A stretch of 64,000 nucleotides of DNA from Mycoplasmatota bacterium. Its GTDB lineage: Bacteria; Bacillota_I; Bacilli_A; Haloplasmatales; Haloplasmataceae. Where the stretch lies: NCBI GenBank assembly GCA_018394295.1, contig CP074573.1, positions 2,053,156 to 2,117,155 on the forward strand. The letters are read 5' to 3'. Position numbers and translations under genes: made by a program. How positions within the stretch are numbered: the first letter of the stretch is position 1; every line of letters starts with the position of its first letter. The notes beneath the pieces are model-generated. The model was given only the letters and a program-made list of their open reading frames with translations. It did not search any database and had not been told where the DNA came from. Below are positions 2,764-52,800 of this stretch, piece by piece.

Positions 2764-4062
2764 ATGTCTCAATACAATTGTATCGTAAAAGTACTAAATT
2801 TAAAAGATGAAAATATTTCTTTTAATGAAAACTTTTACTCAGAAGAAATTATTAAGGGTGTTAGATCACAAATCTATTATGGAACTCTCACATATCAGCC
2901 TCAATATTGTTATTCATGTGGTTGTGTATTTGATAACCAGTTTGAAAAGCATGGCTTTAAGACATCTACAATAACTTTACCTAAAGTATCTAATATGAAT
3001 GCTTATTTAAAACTTAGAAAACAACGTTATAAATGTCATCATTGTAATAGTACCTTTACTCTCAAGACATCTATTGTTAATCAGCATTGTTATATATCTA
3101 ATAATACTAAAGTAGCTGTTGCTCTTGCAGCTTCTAATAAGATTTCTGAGTGTGATTTAGCCAAAGAACATAATGTATCACATTCCACTGTAAATCGTGT
3201 TATAAACAGTTTCTATGAAGTGCATAAGCCTAATTATAATTATTTACCTGAACAACTTTGTTTTGATGAATTTAAATCAGTTAAATCATCAGTAGGGGCT
3301 ATGTCTTTTCTTTTTTGTGATGCTCATAATGGAAGCATAATTGATATCGTTGAAGATAGACGCTTAAATTCATTAATCAAATATTTCCAACGATACACTA
3401 AAAAAGCAAGGAGAAGTGTAAAATTAATCGTTATCGACATGTACAAGCCCTACATTCAACTTATAAAGATGCTCTTTCCTAACGCTAAAATAGTTATGGA
3501 TAAATTCCATATTATTCAATTAATCTCTCGCTCATTAAATAAAACTAGAGTTAGAATTATGAATCAAGATAAAAAGAACTACAATAAGTTTAAACGTTAT
3601 TGGAAGCTTATATTGAAAGATCGGGCTAAATTAGACATCAAAAATTATAGAAAAGTTTATTGTTTTAAACAAATGATGTGTGAAGAAGATATTGTAAATT
3701 ATTTACTAGATCAAAGTAATGAACTTAGAGATACATATGAACTATATCAGGACCTTTTACATAGTATTAAAAACAAAAATCCAGAACTCTTTACAACTAC
3801 TCTTGATCAAATTGAACAAGAATACCCAAACATATCAGCTTATATGAAAACATCAGTTAAATCTATTCGTAAGAATAAATCCTATATTCTAAATCTAATG
3901 TCTACTAATTATACAAATGGTGTAATTGAAGGTATAAATAATAAAATAAAAGTTATCAAGCGTATAGCTTTTGGTTATAGAAGCTATCATCATTTTAAAC
4001 TACGAATTCTCATTTCTCATGGAATGGGAACAATGAAAAGAGGACTAAGTCATTCAGCTTAA
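2764..4062 (+). CDS. ISL3-family transposase
   Basis: This 432-residue DDE-type transposase is full length for the family. An N-terminal zinc ribbon has CYSCGCVFD and, further on, CHHCNSTF (about residues 46-100). A helix-turn-helix follows around ECDLAKEHNVSHSTVNRVI. The catalytic core begins with CFDEFKS and continues with LIVIDMYKPYI, FPNAKIVMDKFHIIQ, and the C-terminal TNGVIEGINNKIKVIKR carrying the final glutamate. The C-terminus FGYRSYHHFKLRILI is typical. No frameshift or internal stop is present, so the element may be active. The start follows an AAAGGA ribosome site that may be masked by a leader hairpin. Confidence 0.95.
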   Translation: MSQYNCIVKVLNLKDENISFNENFYSEEIIKGVRSQIYYGTLTYQPQYCYSCGCVFDNQFEKHGFKTSTITLPKVSNMNAYLKLRKQRYKCHHCNSTFTLKTSIVNQHCYISNNTKVAVALAASNKISECDLAKEHNVSHSTVNRVINSFYEVHKPNYNYLPEQLCFDEFKSVKSSVGAMSFLFCDAHNGSIIDIVEDRRLNSLIKYFQRYTKKARRSVKLIVIDMYKPYIQLIKMLFPNAKIVMDKFHIIQLISRSLNKTRVRIMNQDKKNYNKFKRYWKLILKDRAKLDIKNYRKVYCFKQMMCEEDIVNYLLDQSNELRDTYELYQDLLHSIKNKNPELFTTTLDQIEQEYPNISAYMKTSVKSIRKNKSYILNLMSTNYTNGVIEGINNKIKVIKRIAFGYRSYHHFKLRILISHGMGTMKRGLSHSA

Positions 4063-6293: not shown

Positions 6294-7328
6294 CTATTCT
6301 TTTTTATTGTTAGATTTTTGATTATTAATATATTCAATTAATGACTTTGCATAAACACTTGTAAAATCAGATTGTTCTTCAACTTTTTCCCAATGTCCAT
6401 CTACATATGTAAAGTAGAATTCAGAACGTAATATAGTAATTGGACCAAAATGTAGTGCTTGATACTCTATTAAATAGGTATCCTCATCATTTATAGCGAT
6501 ATCTAATGAAATAAATGGTGTATCTAATTGAGAATAGATTTTCTTGGCAAAGTCTAGTAACCGTTTAGGAGGTTCAGCTAAAAAGTTAAACTTTCCACTT
6601 CCACTTGCTCGAAAATCATTTTTACGTACTTTCCTATTTAGAATATAATATTTGTTGTTAAATACAAGGATTTTCCAATCCTCTTCTAAATTAGGAATGA
6701 ATTGTTGAACTACTAAACGAGAATAATATTTTTCCTCTAGTAAAAACTCTTTTGAATAAGAAATTTTATCAAAGAATTTATAATATATATATTTTTTATA
6801 GAACTCAATAAAATATTTCTTTATAGCGATTTTTTTAAATTTTTTCTTCAATTCACGTTCATTATTTACTTTATAAACAGAGAAAGAACCTGAACCTGTT
6901 ACTTTTTTTAGTACTACAGGATATTTTACTTTGTGTGAATGATTTAATAAATCTTTATAAGTAGATATATATAAAGAATCTAAACTTTTAATTCCTAACA
7001 TTTTTTTGTGAAGATCTTGAAAAGCCTTATTTTCATGACACATAAATAATTCATACTTTGGTATTAATGTATTGTTAAGATTTAAATTGTATAAAATATC
7101 ATTTATATATTCTTTATATTCATAATTTTGTGAACTTGTATAGATGATGAAATTATTTTTAACGTTTTCAATTCCTACTTCATTAACTAATTGATCAAAA
7201 CTCATAATTTCTAAATCCATTTGATTTTCAATAAATATGTCTTTAATCTTATTAATATCAATACTTCTATACTTTTTAATTCCTTGTCTAAGAGCTTTTC
7301 TATAATCAGTGAGTAACAGTACTTTCAT
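6294..7328 (-). CDS. ATP-grasp family protein
   Basis: This 344-residue protein has ATP-grasp features. The segment YPVVLKKVTGSGSFSVYKV (about 136-154) matches the lysine and flexible glycine-rich loop. RLVVQQFIPNLEEDWKILV supplies the hinge acidic residues. FISLDIAINDEDTYLIEYQ near the C-terminus fits the metal-binding strand. Such enzymes form amide or other bonds through an acyl-phosphate intermediate. In a polysaccharide operon it may attach an amino acid or other amine to a sugar acid, which is my inference. It starts inside the end of the upstream GT4 gene (23-base overlap) with a GGAGGTGG ribosome site. Confidence 0.72.
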   Translation of the reverse strand: MKVLLLTDYRKALRQGIKKYRSIDINKIKDIFIENQMDLEIMSFDQLVNEVGIENVKNNFIIYTSSQNYEYKEYINDILYNLNLNNTLIPKYELFMCHENKAFQDLHKKMLGIKSLDSLYISTYKDLLNHSHKVKYPVVLKKVTGSGSFSVYKVNNERELKKKFKKIAIKKYFIEFYKKYIYYKFFDKISYSKEFLLEEKYYSRLVVQQFIPNLEEDWKILVFNNKYYILNRKVRKNDFRASGSGKFNFLAEPPKRLLDFAKKIYSQLDTPFISLDIAINDEDTYLIEYQALHFGPITILRSEFYFTYVDGHWEKVEEQSDFTSVYAKSLIEYINNQKSNNKKE

Positions 7329-9443: not shown

Positions 9444-12174
9444 AAACACTCCTTATTCTTTTCTCGTATATTAAAATAAAAGTTAAAAGAATCCCACTAA
9501 TAATAGTAGTTGCCAACCCCAAAGAAAAGTAAGGTGGTCTATACTGTAACTCTATATTATGATTACCTTCTGGTAAAAATAATCCTATAAAGCCAACATT
9601 AACTTTTTCATACGGATATTCTTTTCCGTCTACTTTAACTGACCATCCTTTACTATAAGGAATTGATAAAACTAATAACTTTTCTTTTTCTAGTGATATT
9701 CTACCAGAAATATTACTATCATTAAATTTTGTAATTTCAAAAGAATTCTCTTTCAATTTTTTAATATCATCTTCATATTCTTTTTTGTAATTAGAATTAT
9801 CCTCTATAATAAATTTTGATATTTGATATTTTCCTGGGCTATCTCCTATATCTAAACGTAATGCTGTTATTAATGAAGGATTTTTAAAATTTAAATGAAC
9901 TGTATAATCATGTGAACCGCTACCAATAATAAAATTCTTTGAATCCTCTTCATTAAAGGAGCTATCATTAGTTTTCCAAAATATCTGACCCACTCTATCG
10001 GATTGTGAACTAATAGTTAAGTCAATTGATATTATGGAGTTTTCAGGAAATGTTACAGGTAAAATAATTTGTGGGTCATTTCCTGTTGCTGTGTAACTAA
10101 AATCCTTAGGGAAATTATTTGTATGTATATCTATATTTCTATAGAACGCATTTTTTATTTGATCCTCAGTTATAGAAATCGTATCAGATTTATTTTCTAA
10201 ATTACTTAAATCGAATTTTGTTAAATTGTTTACAGAACCTGAATCCGAATTAATAACTGCTGCTTTTAAAAGCAATTCATCTTTTTCATTATTATTTAAT
10301 GTGTTGAAATTATCTAATGATATATAATGGTCATAAGTATATCCTAAAGGAAGATAATATTCATTTTCATATATATAAATATCATTAACCTTGTTAATTT
10401 GTTTATAACCAAATTTATTAATATCTTTTTTTGAAAGTAAATATTTAACGCCGACTAAAGTATTTAAATTTTCTCTACCATCAAATCCTTTTATATAATG
10501 TTGAACGCCTGGAATAAGTAAAGGCACATCCAAATTATCAAGAAATTCAATATAACTAGGTGTATTGAACCCACTATATATTTTCGTTCCAGAATAATCT
10601 TGAATTTGAGAATCATTTAAAAATTTAGACCAATATGTTTTATTTACTCTATAAAACGAGGTATCTATACTTTTTATATAAGATAATGCTTGATTAGTGG
10701 AATCATAATACATTTCACCATTAGAGATGATTTTAGGACTAACAGTAAATCTTTTATTGGTAGAATAATAAGAAAATAGAGTCAATTCAGTGATAATCAA
10801 ACCTAATAATAAGAGTTTAATTTCATATTTAAACCTACTACATAAGAAGATAAATAAAGCTGTGTAAATGATTATCAAGATTAAAATTTTATAGTATTCA
10901 TCTGTTTGTATATTAGATAAAAAAATTAGTAATCCAAAAGAAGTTAAAATGACTAAAGTTTTATTTAGTTTGAATTTCAATTGAAATAAACTATCTAATG
11001 TATACATTGATAAGAAAATTAAAGCAGCACTTACCCAAAATGATGATATTTTATAATATCCACCTGAGAAACCATTTAAAAAGTACCTAAAGTAAGGATT
11101 TACTAAATACACAAAGATTAATATTAATAATAATAAATGGGGAATATGTTTTTTGAAATCTCTTTTTATATAAATAAATAATTGAGGGATTAATATAATT
11201 GAAAATAATCCTATATAATAATTAGGTGCCTCTAAATAATTTAAAATACCTTTAAATCTACTCCCTATTCCTAATATATTTCCTGACAAGAATGAACTAA
11301 ATCCTACAAATAAACTATTGATATCATTAAGAGAAAATATTTTTGAATGAAGAAATGCATTAGTTTTAGAATAATCACCACTTACTCTAGGACTATTTAA
11401 TAAATTATAAATAGAGGGGAAAAGAATAAATGCATTTATAGCTAAACTAATCGCATAAAGAAATGCAAAAGATAATGAAAATTTTAAAAATGATTTCAGT
11501 TCTATTTTGTTAGTTACATAGAAATATCTTGTAAATCCATAAACACAAAGTATAAGTGAATATAGATAAACGTAATACATTCCTCTTGAACCTATAATTA
11601 AAAAGAAAACAAGTGGCATCATAAATTTATTTTTATTATGTAAAAATAATTCAAAAGCATATAGTAATAAAATTAAAACTAAACCATCTATTGAATAATG
11701 GTACCATGTACCTCTTATGACTATATGTGCACAAAAAGTGTATAAAATAGATGCAATGATTGAGGGAAATGGTTTAATACCTAATTTTGTTGTATATTTA
11801 TAAACGAATAATGAAATAAGTAATCTTTTTATTACTTCCATATAGGGTAATATATATATAACTAATTTAGGACCAAATAACATTGGAATTAATGTGAATG
11901 GATTGAAGATATAGTTCCCATAGACATCTTTTCCTAAACCACTTGTAAAAGACCAAAATGGAAAATCAAAATTTGAGATTTGTCGGGATATCATAACCAT
12001 ACTTGGCCAAAATTGATTGACTGTATCTGAGCCAATATCATCGTACAAAAATAAATCTTGAAAAGTTAAGAAATTCCAAAACGTTATAACTAATATCAAT
12101 AGAGATATCCCTAAATTTGTTAATAGACCTAACTTTTTATGCATTATTTTTTCAATTATATCGTTAATTTTCAT
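9427..12174 (-). CDS. YfhO-family membrane glycosyltransferase
   Basis: A 915-residue integral membrane protein with a long N-terminal array of hydrophobic helices and a large extracellular C-terminal region ending in one more helix (about 890-910). Conserved YfhO features include YDDIGSDTVNQFWP near the start and the C-terminal SIPYSKGWSVKVDGKEYPY, followed by GLFLPEGNHNIELQY. YfhO proteins are GT-C-like. In Bacillus and Listeria they decorate teichoic acids using undecaprenyl-phosphate sugars. The partner donor synthase would be the GtrB-like protein encoded immediately downstream. The start overlaps the stop of the giant methyltransferase-GT2 gene. Confidence 0.85.
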   Translation of the reverse strand: MKINDIIEKIMHKKLGLLTNLGISLLILVITFWNFLTFQDLFLYDDIGSDTVNQFWPSMVMISRQISNFDFPFWSFTSGLGKDVYGNYIFNPFTLIPMLFGPKLVIYILPYMEVIKRLLISLFVYKYTTKLGIKPFPSIIASILYTFCAHIVIRGTWYHYSIDGLVLILLLYAFELFLHNKNKFMMPLVFFLIIGSRGMYYVYLYSLILCVYGFTRYFYVTNKIELKSFLKFSLSFAFLYAISLAINAFILFPSIYNLLNSPRVSGDYSKTNAFLHSKIFSLNDINSLFVGFSSFLSGNILGIGSRFKGILNYLEAPNYYIGLFSIILIPQLFIYIKRDFKKHIPHLLLLILIFVYLVNPYFRYFLNGFSGGYYKISSFWVSAALIFLSMYTLDSLFQLKFKLNKTLVILTSFGLLIFLSNIQTDEYYKILILIIIYTALFIFLCSRFKYEIKLLLLGLIITELTLFSYYSTNKRFTVSPKIISNGEMYYDSTNQALSYIKSIDTSFYRVNKTYWSKFLNDSQIQDYSGTKIYSGFNTPSYIEFLDNLDVPLLIPGVQHYIKGFDGRENLNTLVGVKYLLSKKDINKFGYKQINKVNDIYIYENEYYLPLGYTYDHYISLDNFNTLNNNEKDELLLKAAVINSDSGSVNNLTKFDLSNLENKSDTISITEDQIKNAFYRNIDIHTNNFPKDFSYTATGNDPQIILPVTFPENSIISIDLTISSQSDRVGQIFWKTNDSSFNEEDSKNFIIGSGSHDYTVHLNFKNPSLITALRLDIGDSPGKYQISKFIIEDNSNYKKEYEDDIKKLKENSFEITKFNDSNISGRISLEKEKLLVLSIPYSKGWSVKVDGKEYPYEKVNVGFIGLFLPEGNHNIELQYRPPYFSLGLATTIISGILLTFILIYEKRIRSVYDDAK

Positions 12175-15100
12175 GTTTCATCCTCTTGAGTAGTAAAGAT
12201 TTCATTACTACTAATTTTAAAATCTGTATCTTCTTTTGATAAATTTATATTGTAATAGGGATCTTTTTTAATAATACTACTCCACTTTCTTTCCATAAAC
12301 TTAATTTCACCATGAAATCTTTTAATTTTCTTTGGAGAGTCATCTTTACCTCTTGATTTAGATTCATAATGATACAGTTCAACTTGAGGTAAAAATATAT
12401 TATAATAACCTTTTTCTAAAAGTTTTAAATTTAAGTCTACATCATTAAAAGCTACTTGAAGTTCTTCTTCTAGACCATGAACTTCAAAGAATTTTTCTTT
12501 TGAAATTAGTAAACAAGCCGCTGTTACAGCACTATAATTATACGGCACCTTTAGTCTTGCGTAATATCCTGGGCTTGTCCTATGATGATTTAGAAAAGCA
12601 TGATTTGCTATTCCTCCAATACCTAAAATAACCCCACCATGTTGAATAGTCTGATCAGGATAAAGTAGTTTAGCACCCACGGCTCCAATATGATTTTGCT
12701 TAGCATATCCAGCCATGATTTCAAGCCAATTTGGAGTAATAACTTCTATATCATTATTTAGTAATAATAATAAATTCCCTTTAGCTATTTTTGCTGCTTC
12801 ATTGTTTAATTTAGAATAATTAAATGGTATATCTAATCTTATTACTCTAAAGTTTTTATACGTTTGTTTATAATGCTCAAATAAATTAAGAGTATCTGTT
12901 TCTATACTACCATTATCAACGATAATTATTTCATAATTTTTAAATGTTGATTTTTCATAAATTGATATCAGACATTTTTCTAATAAATCAGCATGATCCT
13001 TTGTGGGAATAATAATTGAAATAAAATCATCTTCAATTAATTTATAATCCATCATATAATAAGGTACTTCATTATGTTCTATTACATTTGCTTTTAAATT
13101 TCGTCTTAATATGGTATCTTCTAAAGCTTTCTTCCCAGCTACATATGCATAATTTTTACTAGTATTATTCATTGCTGTAGATCCTTCAATCATACGCCAA
13201 TGATATAAGATTTTAGGGATATGAATAATTTTATCTGTACTAGTCTTTTCTAAAAATCTTAATAATAAATCATAATCCTGAGATCCTTCATATCCAGTTC
13301 TAAAACCACCAATTTCATCAACAATTGATTTACGATATACCCCTAAATGACTAATGTAATTAGATGATAAAATCGTATCCGGTGAATAATCTGGTTTAAA
13401 ATGTGGGTCACTTCTTTTACCGTTAATATCTATTTTATCTTCATCACTATAGATTAAATCAAGACCAGGGTTTACATTTAATGCCTTAACAATTTCATAA
13501 AGTGAAAATGGTGGTAATTCATCATCATTATCTAATAATGCTATAAAGTCTCCTGAGGCGAGTGTTAAAGCTGAATTACTTGCTCTTGATATATGACCAT
13601 TTTTTTCTCTATAAATAACTTTGATTCTAGGATCAAGTTTTGTAAAGAAATTTAAAAATGTTTTAATATATTTATAGGTTGAATGATCATCTGCAATACA
13701 TAGTTCCCAGTTAAAATAATATTGATTTCTAATAGATTCTATACATTTTTCCAGCCATTTCTTTTCTACATTATAAACTGGCATAATAATAGAAATCTTT
13801 GGTTGATATTTAAAAGATTTGATCTCTTTTATACATTTTTCTTTATTATATTTCTCATTATTATTTATCCACTCTTGATAAACTTTGAAAGAATCATAAT
13901 TCATAATTTCTTGTTTAAATAAAAATCCTTTTGCATGACGAATGGTTTTTATTAAACCGTGTTTTCTTTGATACTTTAATGTATTTGTAAAATTCTTCCA
14001 TGAGAAGACATATCTAAATTTAGATATGGTACTTTTCCTTTTTTTAAATATCATTCTGGTATTAATTTCAATAATTTTCTCATGCAAGTCGTTATCAGCA
14101 AAAAACCTAATAATTACCTTATCTTTTTTTTGTATTTTGTTAATTTGAATAATAAATCCACTATTTAAAGCTGAATCATATTTACCCTCAAAAGAATTAA
14201 AGACATCATCTCGTTTGCACTTTTCTAATTGACAACATTTATAACTTGGGCTTAATATTGAAATATTTAATTCATTTTTTTTATGAAAAGACCAACCATA
14301 TACATATAAATTCTTTCCTTTAATAAAGCAGTTATCTATATGCATATAGATAGTTTTATCATCAATATGAGTCATTATCTCACTTGAATTATGTTTTTTT
14401 TGCCCTCTTAAAAAGTTAAAACTATTTTTAAAAAAATAAGTGATTTGCCATGAAAATGAACGATAAACATAACTTAATTCTTGAATTAGTTCAGTAATGT
14501 ATGCGTTTAAATTCATCGTATTTTTTTTAAAAGTTTCATATTTTTTTTGTATAACCTCATAATTTTTAGATATTGCTGTAACTTGATTATTCTTTTCTAA
14601 AATATTGTTGTTTAACTGAATAGTATTTTCTTGTAAATCATTTATAACTTTCTGCTTATGATTCATCTCATATTTTATTTCTTGTAGATTTTCGTTTAAT
14701 GTATTAACTAGTTTCTCTAACTCTATAACTTGCTTATTTTTTTGATCTAATTCATTTAATTGATTTATTAACATATTTTCTTTATTTTTTATATATTGGG
14801 CATTTAATTTAAAAGAATCTACAGTTGATAAATCTATTTCAAAATCGATAAGCTTGTAGGAAATTTTAATTTTCTTTATTTCATATGACTTGCTTTCAAA
14901 ATTAATTTGCGGGTCTATATCGATAAAAAAATAGGTTTGTTCAATGTTATAAATTGAATTTGTATGATAAGTCAATTTTATTTCTTTATGATTAGCATCA
15001 TAAAACTCTATCTTGTCTAATTGAACAATACCATTAGTATTAATTGGATCAAATCTTAATCCTTCTATACCTTTATATGAAGTTAAATCAAATTCAATGA

Positions 15101-15917
15101 TATTATTATTTTCTAGATTATAATATTTAATAGAATCCTGTTCAGTAAAACCATTCCCTAAATCAATATAGAGTTGTGCAAAATAATAATTATTCTCTTT
15201 TATAATATCATTATGAACTTGAATATTGTGCTCTTTTACATATGATAATTTTTGTAGTCTAAAGACAAATTGATAGATTTCTCCATATTTTTTTGTTTTT
15301 AAATACTTTGCTACTTCTAGAGGTAAATCTGAATATGTATTTTTTATTTCAATTTCATTTACACTTGCTTTTGTACCGAACTGTTTTACTTGGACTAAAT
15401 CAAGTTTCTTAAAAAAATCTAGGATACTACGATAAGTAAAAAAACGTATATGTGTATTATCAAGAAGTCCTATTTCATTGTAATTAAATTTATCATTGAA
15501 TAAATCTATTAAAATAGAATTATGCGCAACATTTGGCACAGACATTAAAAATGAACCATCATCTTTAAGTAAATCCTTAGAAACTTCTATTACTTTATGC
15601 GGATTGTATAGATGCTCTAAAACATCTGCAAATAGGATATAGTCAAATTTAACTCCTTTGAACTTCTCCACCCAATGATATTCTTCTATATCACCAATTA
15701 CATAATCTACAGCATATCTCGTTGCATCCAATATAGCAGTTTCATCTATCTCTACAATATAAACTTGACAATTCAATTCTTCATTTAAATATTTTGTTAA
15801 TCTACCATGAGCAGGTCCAAACTCCAAAACTATAGAACTTGGTTTTATTTCCTTAGCAATTAAAGATAAAGAATTTTCTGCATTTAAATTTAACTCAAAA
15901 TCATATTTATTAGACAT
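12171..15917 (-). CDS. Methyltransferase-coiled coil-double GT2 fusion protein
   Basis: This 1248-residue protein has several modules. Residues about 1-200 are a class I SAM-dependent methyltransferase, with motif I VLEFGPAHGRL and LFADVLEHLYNPHKVI. A beta-rich section follows (about 220-375), then a Lys/Asn/Glu-rich coiled coil (about 380-475). A first GT2 domain starts near residue 708 (ISIIMPVYNVEKKWLEK, then LLDNDDELP). A second starts near 968 (ISIIIPTKDHADLLEKC, then LLLNNDIEV). Such proteins build or cap the growing chain in ABC-transporter-dependent O-antigen or rhamnan systems, with the coiled coil acting as spacer or ruler. That role is inferred here. It sits directly after the exporter ATPase gene, as expected for a cap-and-export system. 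Confidence 0.88.
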   Translation of the reverse strand: MSNKYDFELNLNAENSLSLIAKEIKPSSIVLEFGPAHGRLTKYLNEELNCQVYIVEIDETAILDATRYAVDYVIGDIEEYHWVEKFKGVKFDYILFADVLEHLYNPHKVIEVSKDLLKDDGSFLMSVPNVAHNSILIDLFNDKFNYNEIGLLDNTHIRFFTYRSILDFFKKLDLVQVKQFGTKASVNEIEIKNTYSDLPLEVAKYLKTKKYGEIYQFVFRLQKLSYVKEHNIQVHNDIIKENNYYFAQLYIDLGNGFTEQDSIKYYNLENNNIIEFDLTSYKGIEGLRFDPINTNGIVQLDKIEFYDANHKEIKLTYHTNSIYNIEQTYFFIDIDPQINFESKSYEIKKIKISYKLIDFEIDLSTVDSFKLNAQYIKNKENMLINQLNELDQKNKQVIELEKLVNTLNENLQEIKYEMNHKQKVINDLQENTIQLNNNILEKNNQVTAISKNYEVIQKKYETFKKNTMNLNAYITELIQELSYVYRSFSWQITYFFKNSFNFLRGQKKHNSSEIMTHIDDKTIYMHIDNCFIKGKNLYVYGWSFHKKNELNISILSPSYKCCQLEKCKRDDVFNSFEGKYDSALNSGFIIQINKIQKKDKVIIRFFADNDLHEKIIEINTRMIFKKRKSTISKFRYVFSWKNFTNTLKYQRKHGLIKTIRHAKGFLFKQEIMNYDSFKVYQEWINNNEKYNKEKCIKEIKSFKYQPKISIIMPVYNVEKKWLEKCIESIRNQYYFNWELCIADDHSTYKYIKTFLNFFTKLDPRIKVIYREKNGHISRASNSALTLASGDFIALLDNDDELPPFSLYEIVKALNVNPGLDLIYSDEDKIDINGKRSDPHFKPDYSPDTILSSNYISHLGVYRKSIVDEIGGFRTGYEGSQDYDLLLRFLEKTSTDKIIHIPKILYHWRMIEGSTAMNNTSKNYAYVAGKKALEDTILRRNLKANVIEHNEVPYYMMDYKLIEDDFISIIIPTKDHADLLEKCLISIYEKSTFKNYEIIIVDNGSIETDTLNLFEHYKQTYKNFRVIRLDIPFNYSKLNNEAAKIAKGNLLLLLNNDIEVITPNWLEIMAGYAKQNHIGAVGAKLLYPDQTIQHGGVILGIGGIANHAFLNHHRTSPGYYARLKVPYNYSAVTAACLLISKEKFFEVHGLEEELQVAFNDVDLNLKLLEKGYYNIFLPQVELYHYESKSRGKDDSPKKIKRFHGEIKFMERKWSSIIKKDPYYNINLSKEDTDFKISSNEIFTTQEDET

Positions 15918-15923: not shown

Positions 15924-17126
15924 CTAACTCCATTCATGTGGTAAGATAAATACTCCTTCACCAATGTATTCACCTTTAACCCAGAATTCTTTGACTTTAC
16001 TTATATAATTAATTGGAACTGTACCTGTTTGATCAAAAATTGCTACATCAAAATAATATTGCCCTCCTAGAATCATCATCTGGTCATAGACAAGGGTCAT
16101 TTCATTTATTCCTTTATTCCATGAAATTTTTACTTTATCCAATAGTGTATTTAAGCCACATATATATTTATTATCAATACCATATATCGCAATCCCGAGC
16201 ACGGGATTTTTTATGGAAGTATCAAGCACTTCATAAGTTATTTTTACTGATGTTTTTTCATTAATTACAATTGTATCAACAGATTGATTAATTGAATTTA
16301 ATAATTCAATTTTTTTAATTTCTGCGATATTATTATTGCTATTAACAACAATACTTTGAGGTTCTGACTCCTCTTTTTTATCATCTATCTTTTTTAAGAA
16401 ACTTTCATAATGTTCACAAACAAGCTGTGCGTTTGCATATTCCATTACTTTACCTTCATGAAGCCAAATTGCCTTCTTACAAAATCTTTTAACAGCATTT
16501 AAATCATGTGATACAAATAAAATGGTAACTCCTTTTTCCATTAGTTCTGTAAATTTATCCATACATTTAAGTGAAAATTGTAGATCACCTACAGCTAATG
16601 CCTCATCAACAATCAGAATTTCAGGCTCAACGTTAATAGCAGTAGCAAATGCCAACCGAACAAACATACCTGTTGAATATGTTTTTACTGGTTGATGAAT
16701 AAAATTACCTATATCCGCAAAATTAATTATATCATCAATTTTTTTATTCATTTCTTCACGAGAAAAGCCCATTAAAATCCCATTTAAATAAATATTTTCA
16801 ATTCCCGTATATTCCATATTAAAGCCCGCGCCTAATTCTAGAAGTGCAGAGACTGTTCCCTGAACTTCAATATCACCGGTTGTAGGCGTAATTATTCCTG
16901 TAACAAGCTTTAAAAGTGTAGATTTCCCAGCGCCATTTTTACCGATTATTCCTAAAGTCTCACCTTTTTTTACATTAAATGAAACATCATTTAAAGAATA
17001 AAATTCATTATGATATTTTTTATGCCTAAAAATGGATAAAGACTCTTTTAAACGATCTTTTGGACTATTATAAATTTTATACACTTTTGATAATTCTTTA
17101 ACTTTTATAACATAATTATTCATCAT
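15924..17126 (-). CDS. Polysaccharide ABC exporter ATP-binding subunit (Wzt/TagH-like)
   Basis: The 400-residue ATPase has Walker A GKNGAGKST (about residues 62-70), signature YSTGMFVRLAFA, Walker B ILIVDEALAVGD and the switch histidine in LFVSHDL. The first 240 residues are the nucleotide-binding domain. The remaining 160 form a beta-rich Wzt-type C-terminal domain (DTIVINEKTSVKITYEV onward), which in Wzt proteins recognises the cap on the finished glycan. With the permease 6 bases upstream it forms an ABC-2 exporter of lipid-linked polysaccharide. The methyltransferase domain in the next gene could supply that terminal cap. An AGGTGAT ribosome site precedes the start. Confidence 0.92.
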   Translation of the reverse strand: MMNNYVIKVKELSKVYKIYNSPKDRLKESLSIFRHKKYHNEFYSLNDVSFNVKKGETLGIIGKNGAGKSTLLKLVTGIITPTTGDIEVQGTVSALLELGAGFNMEYTGIENIYLNGILMGFSREEMNKKIDDIINFADIGNFIHQPVKTYSTGMFVRLAFATAINVEPEILIVDEALAVGDLQFSLKCMDKFTELMEKGVTILFVSHDLNAVKRFCKKAIWLHEGKVMEYANAQLVCEHYESFLKKIDDKKEESEPQSIVVNSNNNIAEIKKIELLNSINQSVDTIVINEKTSVKITYEVLDTSIKNPVLGIAIYGIDNKYICGLNTLLDKVKISWNKGINEMTLVYDQMMILGGQYYFDVAIFDQTGTVPINYISKVKEFWVKGEYIGEGVFILPHEWS

Positions 17127-17131: not shown

Positions 17132-17947
17132 CTACAAAACATCTGCAAAATGTCGTCTTAATTTAGCAAAAAAATAGGCTCCTAGCAATAATGTGATTAA
17201 GGTAAAAGCCCAAAAGTATATTAAATCATTTATTCGATTAAAAAACCAAATCTGATTTATAAAGGAGTCCCTAAAACCATCTACAATATAAAATAATGGA
17301 TTTAATTTTAACAACCATACTTTGGATTCAGGTATAGTTTGTTTATAATTCCATAAAATGGGTGTTAACCATATTAATATTTGTAATAATATTTCAACAA
17401 ATTGACCTACGTCTTTTAAAAATACAGCTAAAGAAGAGGTAACCCAAGATAAGCCAATTAGTAGAATAATCATAGCAAATGTATAATAGATAACTTGTAT
17501 ACTATAAATTGTAATAGGATATTTATAGAAGATGTACATCAAAAAAATTAATATAAAAAAGAAGATATGGACAAAAAAAGATGATAGAATTTTAACCATA
17601 GGTAAAACACTAACTCTAAATTTGACTTTCTTAACTAAATAACTATATTCATATAAACTATTAGTTGCACCTAAAAGTGCATCACTAAAAAAGAACCAAG
17701 GGATAAGTGCTGTAATCAGCCATAAAACAAATGGAAAGTTTTCTATTGGTGTTGACTTCAAACCAACTTGAAATACAAACCAGAAAACAATAATAATGAC
17801 TACGGGTTTAATAAAAGCCCATATTCCACCCAAAATTGAACCAGCGTATTTTGTTTTAAAATCATTATAGGCTAAGCTAAAAATAATTTTCCGATTTCTT
17901 AGTAAATGTTTAATAAATAAACTGAATTCGCTAGTAATTTTTGACAT
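17132..17947 (-). CDS. Polysaccharide ABC exporter permease (Wzm/TagG-like)
   Basis: This ABC-2 type permease has six predicted membrane helices. The conserved N-terminal block LAYNDFKTKYAGSILGGIWA is the amphipathic lead-in typical of Wzm/TagG. WLTPILWNYKQTIP and LNPLFYIVDGFRDSF complete the family pattern. I place the start at the ATG at 17947 because GGTGAT lies just before it. An in-frame ATG at 17992 would overlap rmlB by 62 bases and lacks a ribosome site. The encoded protein is then 271 residues. It pairs with the ATPase encoded 6 bases downstream. Confidence 0.9.
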   Translation of the reverse strand: MSKITSEFSLFIKHLLRNRKIIFSLAYNDFKTKYAGSILGGIWAFIKPVVIIIVFWFVFQVGLKSTPIENFPFVLWLITALIPWFFFSDALLGATNSLYEYSYLVKKVKFRVSVLPMVKILSSFFVHIFFFILIFLMYIFYKYPITIYSIQVIYYTFAMIILLIGLSWVTSSLAVFLKDVGQFVEILLQILIWLTPILWNYKQTIPESKVWLLKLNPLFYIVDGFRDSFINQIWFFNRINDLIYFWAFTLITLLLGAYFFAKLRRHFADVL

Positions 17948-18965
17948 CTTTATCACCATATTGTTTTTCATAATATTTTTGATATTCACCACTAATAATA
18001 TTTTCCCACCAATTTCTATTATTCAAATACCAATTTATGGTTTGACGAATTCCAGTATCAAATGAATATCGTGGTTTCCAACCGAGTTCAGTTACAATTT
18101 TTGTAGGATCGATCGCATAACGTTGATCATGTCCAGGTCGGTCTTTTACAAAGGTGATTAAACTTTCTGGTTTATCTAATTCATGTAATATTCTTTTAAC
18201 AACTTCTAAATTGGTAAGTTCATTATGTCCACCTATATTGTAAACTTCTCCAACTTTTCCATCATGAATGATTAAATCAATCGCTGTACAATGATCATAT
18301 ACATGGAGCCAATCACGTACGTTTTGGCCGTTCCCATAAACAGGTAAATTCTGTTTATTTAAAGCACGACTAATCATAAGTGGAATTAATTTTTCTGGAA
18401 AATGATAAGGTCCATAATTATTAGAACAACGACTTATCGTAATCGGCATTCTATAAGTACGATGATATGCCATACATAATAAATCAGCACTTGCTTTACT
18501 TGCTGAATAAGGGCTAGAAGTATGGAGAGGAGTTTCCTCTGTAAAAAATAAATCAGGGCGATCAAGTGGTAAATCACCATATACTTCATCTGTTGATATT
18601 TGGTGATATCTTTTTACATTATACTTTTTCGATGCATCTAGTAATATTTGTGTTCCCATTACATTAGTTTTAATAAAAGTTCCAGGATCAGTTATCGAAC
18701 GATCCACATGAGACTCAGCAGCAAAGTTAACAACAACATCAAATAATTCATCAGTAAATAAGTCATAGATAAAATCTCTATCACTAATATCGCCTTTAAC
18801 AAACTTAAATTGAGGATTATCCATCACATTTTTTAATGTTTCTATATTACCAGCATATGTGAGTAAATCTAAACAAACGATTTTATATTTTGGATATTTT
18901 TCTAACATATAATGTACAAAATTTCCACCAATAAAACCTGCGCCACCTGTAACTAATACTTTCAT
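17931..18965 (-). CDS. rmlB: dTDP-glucose 4,6-dehydratase
   Basis: This extended SDR makes dTDP-4-keto-6-deoxyglucose, the second step to dTDP-L-rhamnose. Motifs are TGGAGFIGGNF at the N-terminus, the ISTDEVYGDL block with the catalytic Thr-Asp-Glu, and YSASK (Tyr and Lys). NNYGPYHFPEKLIPL and GHNELTNLEVV are RmlB signatures. Its 344 residues are normal. It overlaps the stop of rmlD by 4 bases and the permease start by about 17 bases, so all belong to one transcript. Confidence 0.95.
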   Translation of the reverse strand: MKVLVTGGAGFIGGNFVHYMLEKYPKYKIVCLDLLTYAGNIETLKNVMDNPQFKFVKGDISDRDFIYDLFTDELFDVVVNFAAESHVDRSITDPGTFIKTNVMGTQILLDASKKYNVKRYHQISTDEVYGDLPLDRPDLFFTEETPLHTSSPYSASKASADLLCMAYHRTYRMPITISRCSNNYGPYHFPEKLIPLMISRALNKQNLPVYGNGQNVRDWLHVYDHCTAIDLIIHDGKVGEVYNIGGHNELTNLEVVKRILHELDKPESLITFVKDRPGHDQRYAIDPTKIVTELGWKPRYSFDTGIRQTINWYLNNRNWWENIISGEYQKYYEKQYGDKDVKNY

Positions 18966-19816
18966 TTCACTTCACCTAATTCTTTCAAATAACGATTGAG
19001 GGCATCTTGCCAGGTTGGCAATAAATTAAAGCCTTCATCTATTAACGATCTTTTTGATAATCTTGAATTTTTTGGTCTAGTCGCTTTTGTTGGATAATGT
19101 TCTGTTGAAAGTGGATTAACATTTATATCAATATTTGCTTGGTTAAATATTTCACAGGCAAAATCATACCAACTACAAAATCCTTCATTAGTTGCGTGAT
19201 AAATACCATAATGATTAGTCATCATCATGTCACACAATAATTTAGCCAAATCATAAGTATAGGTAGGAGAACCAATTTGGTCACTAACAACAGATAATTC
19301 ATTTTTAGTTTTTCCAAGCTTTAACATGGTCTTCACAAAATTGTGACCATTTATTCCAAAAACCCATGATATACGGATGATAAAATGTTTTTCGGTATGT
19401 TTCAATACTTCTTTTTCACCTAGATATTTGGTTTCTCCATAATAATTAACTGGATTAGGTTTATCGTTTATCGAAAATGGATTATCCCCTTTACCATCAA
19501 AAACATAATCTGTACTGACATAAAATAGCGTAGCGTCTACTTTTTTACATGCCTTGGAAATATATTTTGTACCATTCACATTTACATCATAACATAGTTC
19601 TTTATGATCTTCAGCGGCATCAACAGCGGTATAAGCAGCACAGTGAAATACTATATCAAAAGGTTGTTGTGTTATAAAAGAATTTACATCATCTTCTTTG
19701 GTAATGTCTAATTCTTCTTTATCAATGCCAACCACGTCATTAAATCCCCGTTTATTTAATTCTTTTAAGACATCATACCCTAATTGACCCTTAACACCTG
19801 TCACAAGTATTTTCAT
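18962..19816 (-). CDS. rmlD: dTDP-4-dehydrorhamnose reductase
   Basis: It reduces dTDP-4-dehydro-L-rhamnose to dTDP-L-rhamnose with NAD(P)H, the last pathway step. The protein begins MKILVTGVKGQLGYDV and has FYVSTDYVFDG and the YxxxK pair in YYGETKYLGEKEV. RISWVFGINGHNFVKTML is also typical. I chose the ATG at 19816 because AAAGGAG lies just before it. An upstream in-frame start would add 19 residues lying inside the GT2 gene. The product is 284 residues, the normal size. The first 26 bases overlap the upstream GT2 gene. Confidence 0.94.
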   Translation of the reverse strand: MKILVTGVKGQLGYDVLKELNKRGFNDVVGIDKEELDITKEDDVNSFITQQPFDIVFHCAAYTAVDAAEDHKELCYDVNVNGTKYISKACKKVDATLFYVSTDYVFDGKGDNPFSINDKPNPVNYYGETKYLGEKEVLKHTEKHFIIRISWVFGINGHNFVKTMLKLGKTKNELSVVSDQIGSPTYTYDLAKLLCDMMMTNHYGIYHATNEGFCSWYDFACEIFNQANIDINVNPLSTEHYPTKATRPKNSRLSKRSLIDEGFNLLPTWQDALNRYLKELGEVK

Positions 19817-20675
19817 TTTGCACTCCTTTGGTATTAATAATTTTATTATTGTAATTTCCTCTAAGAAAATCAATTATTCCTGCTAAAATCAATCTTAATT
19901 TCTTTAATTTTTGTTTTTCAAATATAATAACTAAAAAAGTAAAATATAAAATTCCTACTAAGTGGATAAAAATAAATTTAAATCCACGTTTACGATACTT
20001 AAAAGCAATGTAAAGACGATTACGTACGAAAAAATACTTCCGAAAAGGAGCATGATGACGTACAATATGTTTTTTAAACAAAAATTTGCGTACAACTGGT
20101 GCCCCAATTCGATGTTCTAAAGTTAAATCAGAAGTTTGAATAACTTGATAACCAGCATCTATCACACGATATGAAATATCTAAGTCAACCATGTCTATAA
20201 ACAATTTGTTATCAAAACCACCAGCATCCTTTAAAGCTTGTACAAGATTTAAAGAGCCTGAGGTAATAACATGAGACACCGGTCTTGTTTCTGTTACATT
20301 ACTTAATTTATTTTCTCCTAATTCTTTTTCAATAATATTAGGACCGACGATTCCAACTTTTTCATTTTTATTAAAATGGTTTAATAAAACCTCAACATAA
20401 CCATCTTTTAGGTATGAATCTTGATCCATGGTCAAGATATATTCATAATTATTTATAAATGCGTAATCTAATGCAATATTTAATGCCTTCGCAATTCCAA
20501 CATTTTCTTCATTTTCGATTATATTTAATTGAACATTTTGATTAATTACATCTAAATTAATTTTTACCCCATTATTAACGATAAGTATATGATCTACTTG
20601 TTCATCTAGTTTTTTTAAATTAAAATTTAAGATATCATAGTCTGGATTATATGTTACAATAGCACCAAGTATCAT
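19791..20675 (-). CDS. Family 2 glycosyltransferase, probable rhamnosyltransferase
   Basis: A 294-residue GT2 protein starting ILGAIVTYNPDYDILNFNL. It has ILIVNNG, NVGIAKALNIALDYA and YILTMDQDSYLKDGY, where DQD stands at the metal site. This pattern is the RfbF/WbbL-like rhamnosyltransferase group, in which D-Q-D is common. A C-terminal hydrophobic segment near residues 235-255 suggests membrane contact. The gene sits between rmlC and rmlD, overlapping both (ATGA overlap with rmlC), which supports use of dTDP-rhamnose. Donor assignment remains an inference. Confidence 0.87.
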   Translation of the reverse strand: MILGAIVTYNPDYDILNFNLKKLDEQVDHILIVNNGVKINLDVINQNVQLNIIENEENVGIAKALNIALDYAFINNYEYILTMDQDSYLKDGYVEVLLNHFNKNEKVGIVGPNIIEKELGENKLSNVTETRPVSHVITSGSLNLVQALKDAGGFDNKLFIDMVDLDISYRVIDAGYQVIQTSDLTLEHRIGAPVVRKFLFKKHIVRHHAPFRKYFFVRNRLYIAFKYRKRGFKFIFIHLVGILYFTFLVIIFEKQKLKKLRLILAGIIDFLRGNYNNKIINTKGVQNENTCDRC

Positions 20676-21220
20676 AAGAAATTAATATCTGAATCACTTA
20701 GTAAAGGTGCATTTTTATCTTTATCTGATAAAATCATTTCAAAATCTGGCCATTCAATATTTAATTCAGGATCTTTATAATTAATTGAACGATCATGTTC
20801 TTTAGAATAAACTTCATCAACCTTATATTGAACTTCCACATCATCAGTTAATGTTAAAAATGCATGTCCAAATCCTTTAGGGATAAGTAATTGCTTAAAA
20901 TTTTCACTACTTAATTCTACTTGCACATATTGTTTATATGTAGGAGAATTTTTCCTTAAATCAACCACAACATCCAAAATTTTTCCTCTTGTACAACGAA
21001 CTAGTTTGGTTTGGGCTTTGGGGTTAATTTGAAAATGAATTCCACGTAGTACACCTTTATCTTGACTATAGGAATGATTATCTTGTACAAAGTGATAGTT
21101 AAAGCCAGCTTCCATCATCTTCTTTTGATTATAAGATTCGGTAAAATAACCTCTATTATCTTTAAACACTCTTGGTGTTAAAATAAAAACACCGTCTAGT
21201 TTTGTTTTTTCTATATTCAT
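20672..21220 (-). CDS. rmlC: dTDP-4-dehydrorhamnose 3,5-epimerase
   Basis: A cupin-fold epimerase converting dTDP-4-keto-6-deoxyglucose to dTDP-4-keto-L-rhamnose. The 182 residues include the catalytic base His62 in GVLRGIHFQ, FFTES-type substrate residues in RGYFTESYN, and VVDLRKNSPTYKQY. LLIPKGFGHAFLTL is the C-terminal cupin signature. It lies 11 bases after rmlA and overlaps the GT2 start by four bases. Confidence 0.96.
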   Translation of the reverse strand: MNIEKTKLDGVFILTPRVFKDNRGYFTESYNQKKMMEAGFNYHFVQDNHSYSQDKGVLRGIHFQINPKAQTKLVRCTRGKILDVVVDLRKNSPTYKQYVQVELSSENFKQLLIPKGFGHAFLTLTDDVEVQYKVDEVYSKEHDRSINYKDPELNIEWPDFEMILSDKDKNAPLLSDSDINFL

Positions 21221-21231: not shown

Positions 21232-22116
21232 CTAATAATGTATTTTACCTTCAAGAACTTTTTGAAGGTATTTTCCATATTGATTTTTCTTTAAGCGTTC
21301 TAATTGACTTTTTAACTGTTCCTTGGTAATCCATTGATTGATATAGGCAATTTCTTCTGGACAGGATATCTTTAACCCTTGATGTTGTTCGATGAGTTGA
21401 ACAAACGTTGATGCTTCAAGTAAAGATTCATGCGTTCCTGTGTCTAACCAAGTAAAACCACGTCCTAGAGTTTCAACATGTAATCGATTATGATTTAAAT
21501 AAAGTTGATTGACATCTGTAATCTCTAATTCACCACGAGCTGATGGTTTAATTGATTTAGCAAAATCAATTACTTTATTATCGTAAAAATATAAACCTGT
21601 CACTGCATAATGACTTTTTGGGTTTTGTGGTTTTTCTTCAATTGATATTGCTTTTCCAAATTCATCAAACTCAACAACGCCAAATCTTTCAGGGTCTTCA
21701 ACATAATACCCAAAGACAGTCGCCGTTCCATTTTCAGCTTGTTTTACCGCTTGATGAAGTTTATTTCGTAAACCATTTCCATAAAAGATATTATCACCTA
21801 ATACCAACGCAACTGAACTATCACCAATGAACTTCTCACCAATGATAAAGGCTTGTGCAAGTCCATCTGGAGAGGGTTGTTCTTCATAACTTAATTGAAT
21901 GCCAAAATTATGACCATCGCCTAATAAACCCTTGAAGCGTGGTAAATCCTCAGGTGTTGAAATAATTAATATTTCTTTTATTCCTGCAAGCATTAACACT
22001 GACAGTGGATAATAAATCATTGGTTTATCATAAACTGGTAATAATTGTTTACTTGTTACGGTTGTCAGTGGATACAATCTAGTTCCACTACCACCCGCTA
22101 AAATAATTCCTTTCAT
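21232..22116 (-). CDS. rmlA: Glucose-1-phosphate thymidylyltransferase
   Basis: The first enzyme of the dTDP-rhamnose pathway couples dTTP and glucose-1-phosphate. The 294 residues begin [17 protein letters not shown] with the GxGTRxxPxT nucleotide-binding loop. [19 protein letters not shown] and VTGLYFYDN follow, together with the [13 protein letters not shown] block. This length fits the RmlA short form. The AAAGGAG ribosome site supports the start. It opens the rml gene block (order A, C, GT2, D, B) and is separated from the upstream DUF2304 gene by 81 bases containing a hairpin. Confidence 0.96.
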
Positions 22117-25384: not shown

Positions 25385-26689
25385 CTATTTTTTGACAATT
25401 ATCTTCATTTTGAGACAATCATCTTCATCTCCCTGTCGATAGATTTCTACCACTCCAATGAGTGTATAGAAGTATACTCCAAAGAAAAATAAATCAAAAC
25501 TAACATCAAATAATTGATGCGTTAACACCCCAATAATAGAACATACGATACATAAAATTAAAGAGTTATTTCTTTTATTTAATATCTTAACCCAATGGTA
25601 GACAATAACAGTAAATAATATTAGTCCAACAATTCCAAGGGTTGCAGCGATTTGAAGTAAGAAATTATGATAATGTGCATATGGCCTATGTAAATAATGA
25701 TTAATCATATATTCACTAGATTTTATGCCTTGACCAAATATTGGACCTTGTTTAAATTTTTCCCACCCTAACGCATAAATTTGATGTCTACTACGATCAT
25801 TAAAGAAATTTCTCCCCTTTAAATATTTCAAAATAATACTGTAAAATTTATTTTTATACAATAAAATAGGTGTTGAAATTAATAATAAAAGACCTCCATA
25901 TCGTAATACTCTCTTCTTACGTAGAAAAACAATACTAAAAAGAAGGATTGATATGAAAACACCTAAATAAGCACCCCGTGATAAAGTCATCAATAATCCT
26001 AGAAAGTTCAGTATATCAATAAGTAAATAGATAAAAAATGCTCTCTTCTTGTTTATATATTTATATAAAGCAATAGGTATTAATAATACATAAATTGATG
26101 CGAGTATATTTGACATGGACCATCCTAAACGAAGGAGGTTTTTATTATCTAAAATAGGAGTGATTCCATATCTAATATAGAGTGAGAATATTTCTAAAGA
26201 TAGGGTAAGCATTAAAAAAGAGGCGATATAAGTTATACAATCAATTTTTTTAATTTTAGTACTTCGGTTGGTAATTATAAAGTAAGCCAGATATCCTTCT
26301 ATTATCGCAAATAAGCCATTTATTCCATATTTAAGCATAGGCGTCCATAATAAAGATAGACTATTATAAATTAAGTAGATTAAAAGCGGGAAAAATAAAT
26401 TTCCTATAACGATTCTTTTTTCCCTTATACAATAAAAAAGAGTTAAACAAAAAAGAAATTGAATGAGACAATATTCAACCAGAATAAAACTTGTACTAGA
26501 TTGTTTTGACATAACTGAAAATAGAACAATTATTAAATAGTAGTTGATTGATTTCTTTTTATAAATGAAATAACAAAAAATAACCCCATAAATTAATAGG
26601 AGGATATAAGGATGTATATTTAAAAACCAGATGATAAATGTTAAAAGTGTCAATAAAAACAACTTTATCTCTAATGAATATGTCTTCAT
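25385..26689 (-). CDS. O-antigen ligase / polymerase family membrane protein (Wzy_C)
   Basis: This integral membrane protein has about 11 helices and the large extracytoplasmic loop typical of WaaL/Wzy_C proteins. The loop contains GRNFFNDRSRHQIYALGWEKF and FGQGIKSSEYM, then YAHYHNFLLQIAATLGIVGL with the conserved histidine. The family joins finished or growing glycans to an acceptor outside the cell. I place the start at ATG 26689 (434 residues) because the upstream in-frame TTG at 26752 has no ribosome site and adds a hydrophilic, asparagine-rich lead. It is the first gene of the long minus-strand operon. Polymerase versus ligase cannot be decided. Confidence 0.8.
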   Translation of the reverse strand: MKTYSLEIKLFLLTLLTFIIWFLNIHPYILLLIYGVIFCYFIYKKKSINYYLIIVLFSVMSKQSSTSFILVEYCLIQFLFCLTLFYCIREKRIVIGNLFFPLLIYLIYNSLSLLWTPMLKYGINGLFAIIEGYLAYFIITNRSTKIKKIDCITYIASFLMLTLSLEIFSLYIRYGITPILDNKNLLRLGWSMSNILASIYVLLIPIALYKYINKKRAFFIYLLIDILNFLGLLMTLSRGAYLGVFISILLFSIVFLRKKRVLRYGGLLLLISTPILLYKNKFYSIILKYLKGRNFFNDRSRHQIYALGWEKFKQGPIFGQGIKSSEYMINHYLHRPYAHYHNFLLQIAATLGIVGLILFTVIVYHWVKILNKRNNSLILCIVCSIIGVLTHQLFDVSFDLFFFGVYFYTLIGVVEIYRQGDEDDCLKMKIIVKK

Positions 26690-26770
26690 ATAATGACCTG
26701 TTTCTCTATTTAATTCGCTATTATTGTTTGAATAATTACCAAATTTATACAATTAACATCTATACATCCC

Positions 26771-38492: not shown

Positions 38493-38516
38493 CGCGTACT
38501 CCTCATCTTTCTACTA

Positions 38517-41457: not shown

Positions 41458-41460
41458 TAT

Positions 41461-43589: not shown

Positions 43590-43612
43590 AATAGCTCTCC
43601 TTTTAAGGTAAT

Positions 43613-44863: not shown

Positions 44864-44864
44864 A

Positions 44865-52185: not shown

Positions 52186-52800
52186 CTACTTACATTTATC
52201 AGCCTCTCTACCTCTGGTCCCACCTTCAACAACTCCATCCTTTTTTAATACACTAACTATAGTCCCTAAGAAACATTTAATGTCTATCTTCAACCCAATC
52301 ATACTAGCGTACTCCCCATCAAGTTTAGCCTTAACTTCAATAGGAAGTTCATCTCTACCATTAATTTGAGCCCATCCAGTAAGTCCAACTGGTACATCAT
52401 TGGCACCATATTTATCTCTTTCCATTATCAAATCATATTGATTCCATAATGCAGGTCTAGGACCAATTATACTCATATTACCTTTTAAGATATTTATGAT
52501 CTGAGGTAACTCATCAAGAGATGTTTTCCTTAAGAATTTACCGACTTTTGTGATCCATTGTTCAGGGTTCTCTAATAAATGTGTAGGGGTATCTTTTGGT
52601 GTATCAATTCTCATTGTCCTAAACTTCAATATACTGAAATGAGTCTTATGAATACCCACTCTTTTTTGTTTAAATAACACAGGACCTTTAGAATTTAACT
52701 TAATCGCTATTATTAATATAAAAAACACTGGAGATAATAAAATTAAACCTAAAAATGAAAGAATTATATCAATCAGTCTTTTAATTATCAAGTAAAACAT
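52186..52800 (-). CDS. Undecaprenyl-phosphate sugar phosphotransferase (initiating)
   Basis: A 204-residue PglC-type monotopic phosphoglycosyl transferase. One N-terminal hydrophobic segment (about 6-32) is followed by the basic VGIHKTHFSILKFRTM and then TSLDELPQIINILKGNMSIIGPRPA, with the Asp-Glu pair used in catalysis. The short form lacks the CoA-binding/transmembrane domain of WcaJ/WbaP. It transfers a HexNAc-1-phosphate to undecaprenyl phosphate, starting the repeat unit. The next gene upstream, a WbpM-type dehydratase, may supply its 6-deoxy sugar. Confidence 0.93.
   Translation of the reverse strand: MFYLIIKRLIDIILSFLGLILLSPVFFILIIAIKLNSKGPVLFKQKRVGIHKTHFSILKFRTMRIDTPKDTPTHLLENPEQWITKVGKFLRKTSLDELPQIINILKGNMSIIGPRPALWNQYDLIMERDKYGANDVPVGLTGWAQINGRDELPIEVKAKLDGEYASMIGLKIDIKCFLGTIVSVLKKDGVVEGGTRGREADKCK

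Follow-up and report, generated by a model that had tools for sequence, protein, structure and literature searches.

A predicted WsaE-type polymerase-terminator beside Wzm/Wzt in a Gram-positive-type genome

The question raised by this locus is whether a polysaccharide can be extended and capped by a single protein chain encoded next to an ABC exporter that reads the cap. An earlier note on the window, the whole stretch of 64,000 nucleotides analyzed here, had proposed this for a 1248-residue protein, with a built-in spacer between the two activities and a cap-recognition-type Wzt beside it. The domains of the protein, its neighbours and all 40 related methyltransferase loci that we read support this proposal as a prediction.

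Domain architecture of the 1248-residue protein

The open reading frame of the 1248-aa protein lies exactly at 12171..15917, as noted earlier; it runs on the minus strand and starts with ATG; the plus strand of the same interval contains stops throughout. Domain search and AlphaFold2 modelling confirmed the order methyltransferase, beta-rich region, coiled coil, GT2 and GT2, with a small beta domain between the coiled coil and the first GT2. The N-terminal part (residues 1-228; 15234..15917, minus strand) is a class I SAM-dependent methyltransferase with the motif VLEFGPAHGRL, identified by domain search (Methyltransf_23, residues 17-175, E 2.3e-16), the model and a PDB match. At the C-terminal end, Glycos_transf_2 was matched twice, at residues 709-869 and about 966-1188 (overall E 1.3e-49). 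The DXD-type LLDNDDE and the QDYD motif are intact in the first GT2 module (residues 702-940; 13098..13814, minus strand), and LLNNDIEV, NDVD and YHYES are intact in the second (residues 964-1232; 12222..13028, minus strand).

AlphaFold2 was run on residues 1-720 and also on the beta domain. The model of residues 1-720, whose top PDB match was the putative methyltransferase 3cc8 (E 3.4e-13), contained a Rossmann methyltransferase (16-230) followed by a beta sandwich (246-359), then two stretches of long helix (363-439 and 450-504) and a further small beta domain (522-619). The methyltransferase and the beta sandwich were modelled with good confidence and the first helix with moderate confidence; past about residue 440 confidence was poor. 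The beta sandwich (residues 229-368; 14814..15233, minus strand), seen by AlphaFold2, has no Pfam model, and an assignment to a known fold was dropped since nothing in the PDB matched it at E 0.001. We also ruled out a kinase in this position, because residues 229-368, which link methyltransferase and coil, were modelled as this beta sandwich. Further cap enzymes carry the same domain, and some Wzm proteins have it at their N-terminus. Such a recurrent beta domain lacking a Pfam model was a less expected observation, and it may tie terminator, glycan and exporter together.

The presumed spacer is a predicted coiled coil with long helices (residues 363-504; 14406..14831, minus strand). The heptad pattern of residues 363-486 exceeded that of all 5000 shuffles, and together with the model, of moderate confidence in this part, it bears out a coiled coil between terminator and polymerase. 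The small beta domain that follows (residues 522-625; 14043..14354, minus strand), delimited by the model and homologue comparison, stands before the GT pair in split homologues as well. From the methyltransferase to the first GT, the spacer measures 510 residues in the window protein versus 359-402 in most Lactobacillales relatives, so that the pairing does not depend on a long coiled coil.

Exporter, operon neighbours and host envelope

The gene for the 1248-aa protein comes after those for Wzm and Wzt, both immediate neighbours. The Wzt (15924..17126, minus strand) consists, by domain search, of an ABC ATPase (about residues 5-242) and a C-terminal Wzt_C domain (residues 265-392, E 2e-15), so the C-terminal domain claimed earlier is indeed present. 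Its top PDB match, spanning both domains, was the Wzt of Aquifex aeolicus (8dku), a protein that binds the cap (PMC9445017). In one pairwise alignment the Aquifex cap pocket was partly kept in the window Wzt, Asn being matched by Asn and a cap-contacting His being aligned with Phe. Wzm (17132..17992, minus strand; domain search) is an ABC-2 type permease.

The same operon contains rml genes, all on the minus strand: an RmlB-like dTDP-glucose 4,6-dehydratase (17931..18965; named from sequence and 52-80% identical to the matching gene of related loci), an RmlD-like dTDP-rhamnose synthase (18962..19873), an RmlC-like epimerase (20672..21220) and an RmlA-like thymidylyltransferase (21232..22116). 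A further GT2 glycosyltransferase is encoded at 19791..20675 (minus strand; domain search). Elsewhere in the window, domain searches revealed a Wzy_C (O-antigen ligase family) membrane protein (25385..26752, minus strand), which is a candidate ligase for the exported glycan, a Bac_transf (PF02397) sugar-phosphate transferase (52186..52800, minus strand), which is a candidate initiator, and a second PF02397 protein (59624-60256). No Rfam matches were found within the window.

The host is a monoderm with peptidoglycan genes: LpxC was not found, and the mur cluster (MurE, MraY, MurD, FtsW and MurG) is present, in agreement with the earlier description of the genome as Gram-positive-type.

Distribution of the methyltransferase and the glycosyltransferase half

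Genome-contig homologues were found by an alignment-based scan; a single-protein scan gave none. The methyltransferase family is present in 40 of 395 Lactobacillales genomes, 40-51% identical to the window methyltransferase, and is fused to glycosyltransferases in 26 loci and separate in 14. Wzm and a Wzt with a C-terminal domain lie directly upstream in 36 of 36 loci and in four Enterococcus loci. Thus, the expectation that methyltransferase-bearing homologues always neighbour such a Wzt was confirmed in 40/40 loci read. No full-length homologue was found in the host's own family or order (8 genomes), and in a phylum sample of 392 genomes, searched at E 1e-10, the N-terminal half matched nothing outside the host genome. 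Plasmid records carry mainly the GT half, and none covers 80% of the query.

The GT half by itself occurs more often than the methyltransferase form. Among 13 other genomes of the phylum sample with a GT half, none has the fusion and two have a separate adjoining methyltransferase gene. Therefore, one part of what the earlier note named as refuting its proposal was observed, since GT-half homologues mostly lack the methyltransferase; the other part, a prevailing Wzx/Wzy context, was not, since 46 of 96 loci, counting the window, have a Wzt close to the GT pair, so that these homologues are not tied to Wzx/Wzy. Across 45 diverse loci Wzt_C and a nearby methyltransferase co-occurred (14/17 versus 2/28). 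The Wzt tree reduced this co-occurrence to two to four independent changes, and the association was no longer used as independent evidence after this re-test.

Proposed mechanism and comparison with known systems

In the Gram-positive Geobacillus stearothermophilus, WsaE is described as a trifunctional enzyme, encoded beside wzm/wzt, that combines a 2-O-methyltransferase with two rhamnosyltransferases (PMC2943079). The window protein has the corresponding features, i.e., an N-terminal SAM methyltransferase, two intact GT2 modules in one chain, and adjoining Wzm/Wzt and rml genes. Judged by domain order, motifs and gene order, it is most likely a WsaE-type polymerase-terminator, and there is a good probability that the GT2 modules extend, the methyltransferase caps, the coiled coil keeps the sites apart and Wzt_C selects capped chains. 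Accordingly worded as a pathway, both C-terminal GT2 modules would extend a lipid-linked primer in the cytoplasm, with dTDP-L-rhamnose from the adjacent rml genes as the probable donor. Once the chain spans the coiled coil, its non-reducing end would meet the N-terminal methyltransferase, and O-methylation of the terminal sugar would stop growth. With no kinase domain separating the methyltransferase from the coiled coil, a plain methyl ether is the expected cap, in contrast to WbdD O9a or Klebsiella O7, where it is methyl-phosphate. The Wzt C-terminal domain would then bind the capped end, and Wzm/Wzt would export the chain. We infer the sugar, the capping reaction and the recognition of the cap from these likenesses; the least certain element is that the coiled coil sets the chain length.

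On this last point, capping may occur while the coiled coil is a plain linker or an oligomerization stalk, with length depending on methylation versus polymerization rates or on another factor. This variant of the WsaE-type explanation, compatible with it, is a serious possibility that we rate slightly below even. Fused homologues have spacers of anything from about 359 to 825 residues, split forms carry the methyltransferase as a separate protein, and a review of WsaE raises the possible need for a further factor (PMC2943079). However, the heptad pattern of the window coil is clear, and for the Klebsiella and E. coli systems it is established that the coiled coil acts as a ruler, its presence marking the strategy (PMC11231755).

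Two further readings appear less probable. The methyltransferase could merely decorate the glycan, on internal residues or on some of the chains, and neither end growth nor license export; Wzt_C would then recognize the repeat unit or another end group. This is consistent with the chain-length-independent methylation by WsaE in vitro (PMC2943079), with the partial conservation of the Aquifex pocket, and with three loci (L041, L068 and L117) that have Wzt_C and no methyltransferase detected nearby; but the methyl of the WsaE product sits on the terminal rhamnose (PMC2943079), and the constant adjacency to a Wzt with the C-terminal domain and the fusion or adjacency of methyltransferase and polymerase make this reading unlikely. 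It is very unlikely that the protein is a rhamnan polymerase of the EPA core type with a product anchored to peptidoglycan. The gene order (Wzm, Wzt, methyltransferase protein, GT-GT) is alike, and the ATPase domain of the window Wzt is 62% identical to that of a Lactobacillales Wzt from an epa-type operon; yet an LCP ligase was sought in the genome and not found, and its sole PF00953 protein is MraY, so that neither TagO-type initiation nor LCP anchoring applies and both were rejected for this host. The window has the Wzy_C ligase and PF02397 initiators instead.

That such a system would be new to Gram-positives is not supported: the earlier note took cap-dependent length control to be known from Gram-negative systems, whereas WsaE comes from a Gram-positive, and a WbdD paper already mentions glycan assembly by comparable systems in Gram-positives (PMC3482155). 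WsaE of strain NRS 2004/3a (S-layer glycan cluster; PMC2943079, PMC3898925) shares with the window protein a Gram-positive host, an N-terminal methyltransferase and two glycosyltransferase domains per chain, adjoining wzm/wzt and rml genes in the cluster, a likeness drawn from published descriptions. The PF02397 initiators and the candidate ligase of the window may be comparable to WsaP and WsaB. In contrast to the WsaE system, no SLH protein was found in the window genome (the search covers SLH-type S-layer proteins), and the beta sandwich and coiled coil of the window protein are absent from these descriptions of WsaE.

Published work on epaN places such methyltransferase loci in the enterococcal epa core (PMC7188991, PMC3433357), where Wzm, Wzt, EpaN and EpaO (E. 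faecalis EF2183-EF2180) have the same gene order as the window. In E. avium, E. plantarum and E. termitis, the methyltransferase is 43-44% identical to that of the window and the Wzt has a C-terminal domain. EpaN-like proteins come in two sizes (about 1047-1089 and 527-553 aa), which fits a published comparison in which the epaN of E. faecium is the shorter and that of E. faecalis the longer. A methyltransferase in this EpaN-like setting was less expected, being without mention in these EPA papers. The enterococcal fusions have a second GT2 without its motifs, and their active GT pair is the next protein, whereas methyltransferase and active GTs form one chain in the window; moreover, TagO and LCP are absent from the window genome. 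We tentatively suggest, with slightly more doubt than confidence, that in about a tenth of sampled Lactobacillales species, enterococci included, a methyl cap made by an EpaN-like protein ends the surface rhamnan and Wzt_C reads it, so that a Gram-positive wall polysaccharide would be subject to O-antigen-like control of length and licensing of export. If so, cap-dependent chain termination would be an ordinary Gram-positive strategy, operating in an enterococcal locus important for biofilm, phage adsorption and envelope integrity, and methyl cap, capping enzyme and receptor domain would become directly testable. The window protein would be a compact model, because capping and both extension modules share one chain.

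Among Gram-negative systems, ORF6 of Klebsiella pneumoniae O7 combines a methyltransferase-kinase, a CBM, a coiled coil and two GT2 domains in one chain (PMC11231755). The N-terminal methyltransferase, Ig-like/CBM-like beta domain, coiled coil, two C-terminal GT2 domains and ABC export are common to both proteins. ORF6 differs in that a kinase of about 223 residues separates its methyltransferase from the CBM, in that it adds methyl-phosphate, and in its product, a Gram-negative O antigen. The WbdD/WbdA system of E. coli O9a and O8 (PMC3482155) likewise has a coiled coil with the terminator at one end and the polymerase at the other, and a Wzt that reads the cap; it differs in using two proteins, in the kinase of O9a WbdD, and in mannose versus the rhamnose predicted here. 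The split loci L024, L057 and L099 are Gram-positive look-alikes of WbdD/WbdA.

Architecture and surroundings of the window protein

The window contains a genuine ORF at 12171-15917 on the minus strand, encoding 1248 residues, in which Pfam identified a methyltransferase (17-175) and two GT2 domains. The AlphaFold2 model, covering residues 1-720, placed the methyltransferase first, followed by a beta sandwich (246-359), both with good confidence, then two long helices (363-439, 450-504) and another beta domain at 522-619, with low confidence for everything beyond about residue 440. The methyltransferase assignment is backed by its fold too, since it matched 3cc8 (E 3.4e-13), and when residues 363-486 were shuffled 5000 times, no shuffle reached the heptad signal of the real sequence. 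These analyses bear out the earlier note, which had described a methyltransferase, a coiled coil and two GT2 domains in one chain beside Wzt. Both GT2 modules have intact motifs, conserved in eleven relatives and in 36 Lactobacillales GT pairs.

Immediately upstream in the same operon lie a Wzt with a Wzt_C domain and then Wzm, and beyond Wzm are RmlB, RmlD, a GT2 protein, RmlC and RmlA, the rml (dTDP-rhamnose) names being assigned from sequence. The earlier note had already given this Wzt a C-terminal recognition domain; the best PDB match of Wzt, spanning both its domains, was the cap-binding transporter of Aquifex aeolicus, whose C-terminal domain has a 3-O-methyl sugar as ligand (PMC9445017). 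Downstream, the start of a YfhO gene shares four bases with the stop of the window gene. Farther upstream there is a gene for a Wzy_C ligase-family protein, and the window holds two PF02397 initiating transferases at other places. The genome search returned no LpxC, LCP protein or SLH domain, and the one PF00953 protein is MraY, within the murein gene cluster; the source organism is a monoderm with peptidoglycan genes and without the TagO/LCP route.

The polysaccharide operon also encodes a protein of 344 aa that weakly resembles ATP-grasp proteins (6294-7328), and a transposase-like gene (2764-4062, 432 aa) lies at its edge. An IS21-like pair at 37731-39724 has a transposase frame broken into 187 and 231 aa. 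Separate Wzx/Wzy-type polysaccharide genes at 40333-57731 encode two flippase-like proteins, polymerase-like membrane proteins and a PF02397 initiator.

Distribution of the methyltransferase and GT halves

The N-terminal methyltransferase half and the C-terminal GT pair are distributed differently, the GT pair being commoner. In a 392-genome phylum sample (E at most 1e-40), the pair occurred in 13 other genomes, with a methyltransferase protein adjacent in two and a fused methyltransferase in none. One of those two, locus L024, has the order Wzm, Wzt, a 423-aa methyltransferase and beta-domain protein, and a GT pair 60% identical in the GTs to the window protein; it is a split counterpart of the window gene. 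On the conjugative E. coli plasmid pEC81-2 (L189:1724-9686), an ABC export locus of the capsule type encodes a methyltransferase protein of 912 aa together with a GT pair (804 aa) that shares about 50% identity with the GT half of the window protein.

Of 395 genomes from Lactobacillales, the order to which Enterococcus avium belongs, 40 have the methyltransferase half, 40-51% identical along its full length; it is fused to GT modules in 26 and separate in 14; the enterococcal evidence comes from E. avium, E. plantarum, E. termitis and further relatives. In the fused proteins the motifs of the second GT2 are lost. All 40 loci read (36 + 4) have the order Wzm, Wzt with a C-terminal domain, methyltransferase protein and GT pair, answering, for methyltransferase-bearing homologues, the earlier note's question of whether they adjoin such a Wzt. 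This order and the two protein sizes fit the core of epa, the enterococcal polysaccharide antigen (EPA) locus, where the epaN of E. faecium is described as shorter than its E. faecalis counterpart (PMC3433357). Within that core, EF2181 and EF2180 have been related only to the C-terminal domain of WsaE (PMC7188991), the Geobacillus stearothermophilus polymerase-terminator, and none of the EPA papers that we read mentions a methyltransferase or a cap. The operon at L042, L043, L045, L074 and L150-L185, with Wzm, Wzt with a C-terminal domain, the methyltransferase protein and the GT pair, hints that EPA-type rhamnans carry a methyl cap.

In the 45 loci where a GT pair lies close to a Wzt, counted without the window, a methyltransferase was nearby in 14 of 17 with Wzt_C versus 2 of 28 without (Fisher p 4e-7). 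This association is not independent proof, since on the Wzt ATPase-domain tree it mostly separates one clade from another, and the independent changes number two to four. The Lactobacillales pairing is likewise one family.

The beta-sandwich domain

The beta-sandwich domain of the window protein and its relatives lacks a Pfam model. In the window protein it is confidently predicted as a ten-strand sandwich, for which a PDB fold search gave nothing significant. At relatives' loci it also occurs on a glycerophosphotransferase-like protein, GT2 proteins and some Wzm. The Wzm permeases at L057:5297-6664, L099:5189-6622 and L117:7332-8714 have at their N-terminus a copy of this domain as found in the terminator proteins. 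Adjoining Wzt at L027:12392-13537, a CDP-glycerol glycerophosphotransferase-like domain is fused to the same domain, possibly giving a glycerol-phosphate cap in place of methyl. The protein at L025:7048-9144, between Wzt and the GT pair, comprises a methyltransferase, ~300 residues without assignment and the beta domain, an order resembling the methyltransferase-kinase-CBM of Klebsiella O7 ORF6. The CBM-like domain of ORF6 occupies the same position as the window protein's sandwich (PMC11231755).

Proposed chain extension and capping compared with known systems

The best-supported reading is that the window protein is a WsaE-type polymerase-terminator; its architecture, motifs, neighbours and conserved pairing are observed, and we infer the sugar identity, the cap and its recognition. 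WsaE forms two linkages, and its methyltransferase domain, which acts on alpha-1,3-linked rhamnose, is assigned to the 2-O-methyl cap (PMC2943079). As a kinase is absent from both the 1-720 model and the beta-domain model, the predicted capping product would be a methyl ether instead of methyl-phosphate.

The mechanism in the earlier note, extension and capping in one chain with a built-in spacer, was largely right; a role of the coiled coil as a ruler is the weakest link. For the E. coli O9 and Klebsiella O12 systems a coiled-coil ruler is described, and terminators sit at the far end of the coil (PMC11231755); against such a role here, chain length had no influence on WsaE methylation in vitro (PMC2943079), and the relatives' spacers are shorter than that of the window protein. 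Presenting cap-dependent control as new for Gram-positives was an overstatement, because WsaE is already such a case and a WbdD paper already mentions Gram-positive systems (PMC3482155). In Gorillibacterium and Saccharibacillus, the methyltransferase, beta domain and coiled coil form one protein and the GT pair the next, a split resembling WbdD and WbdA.
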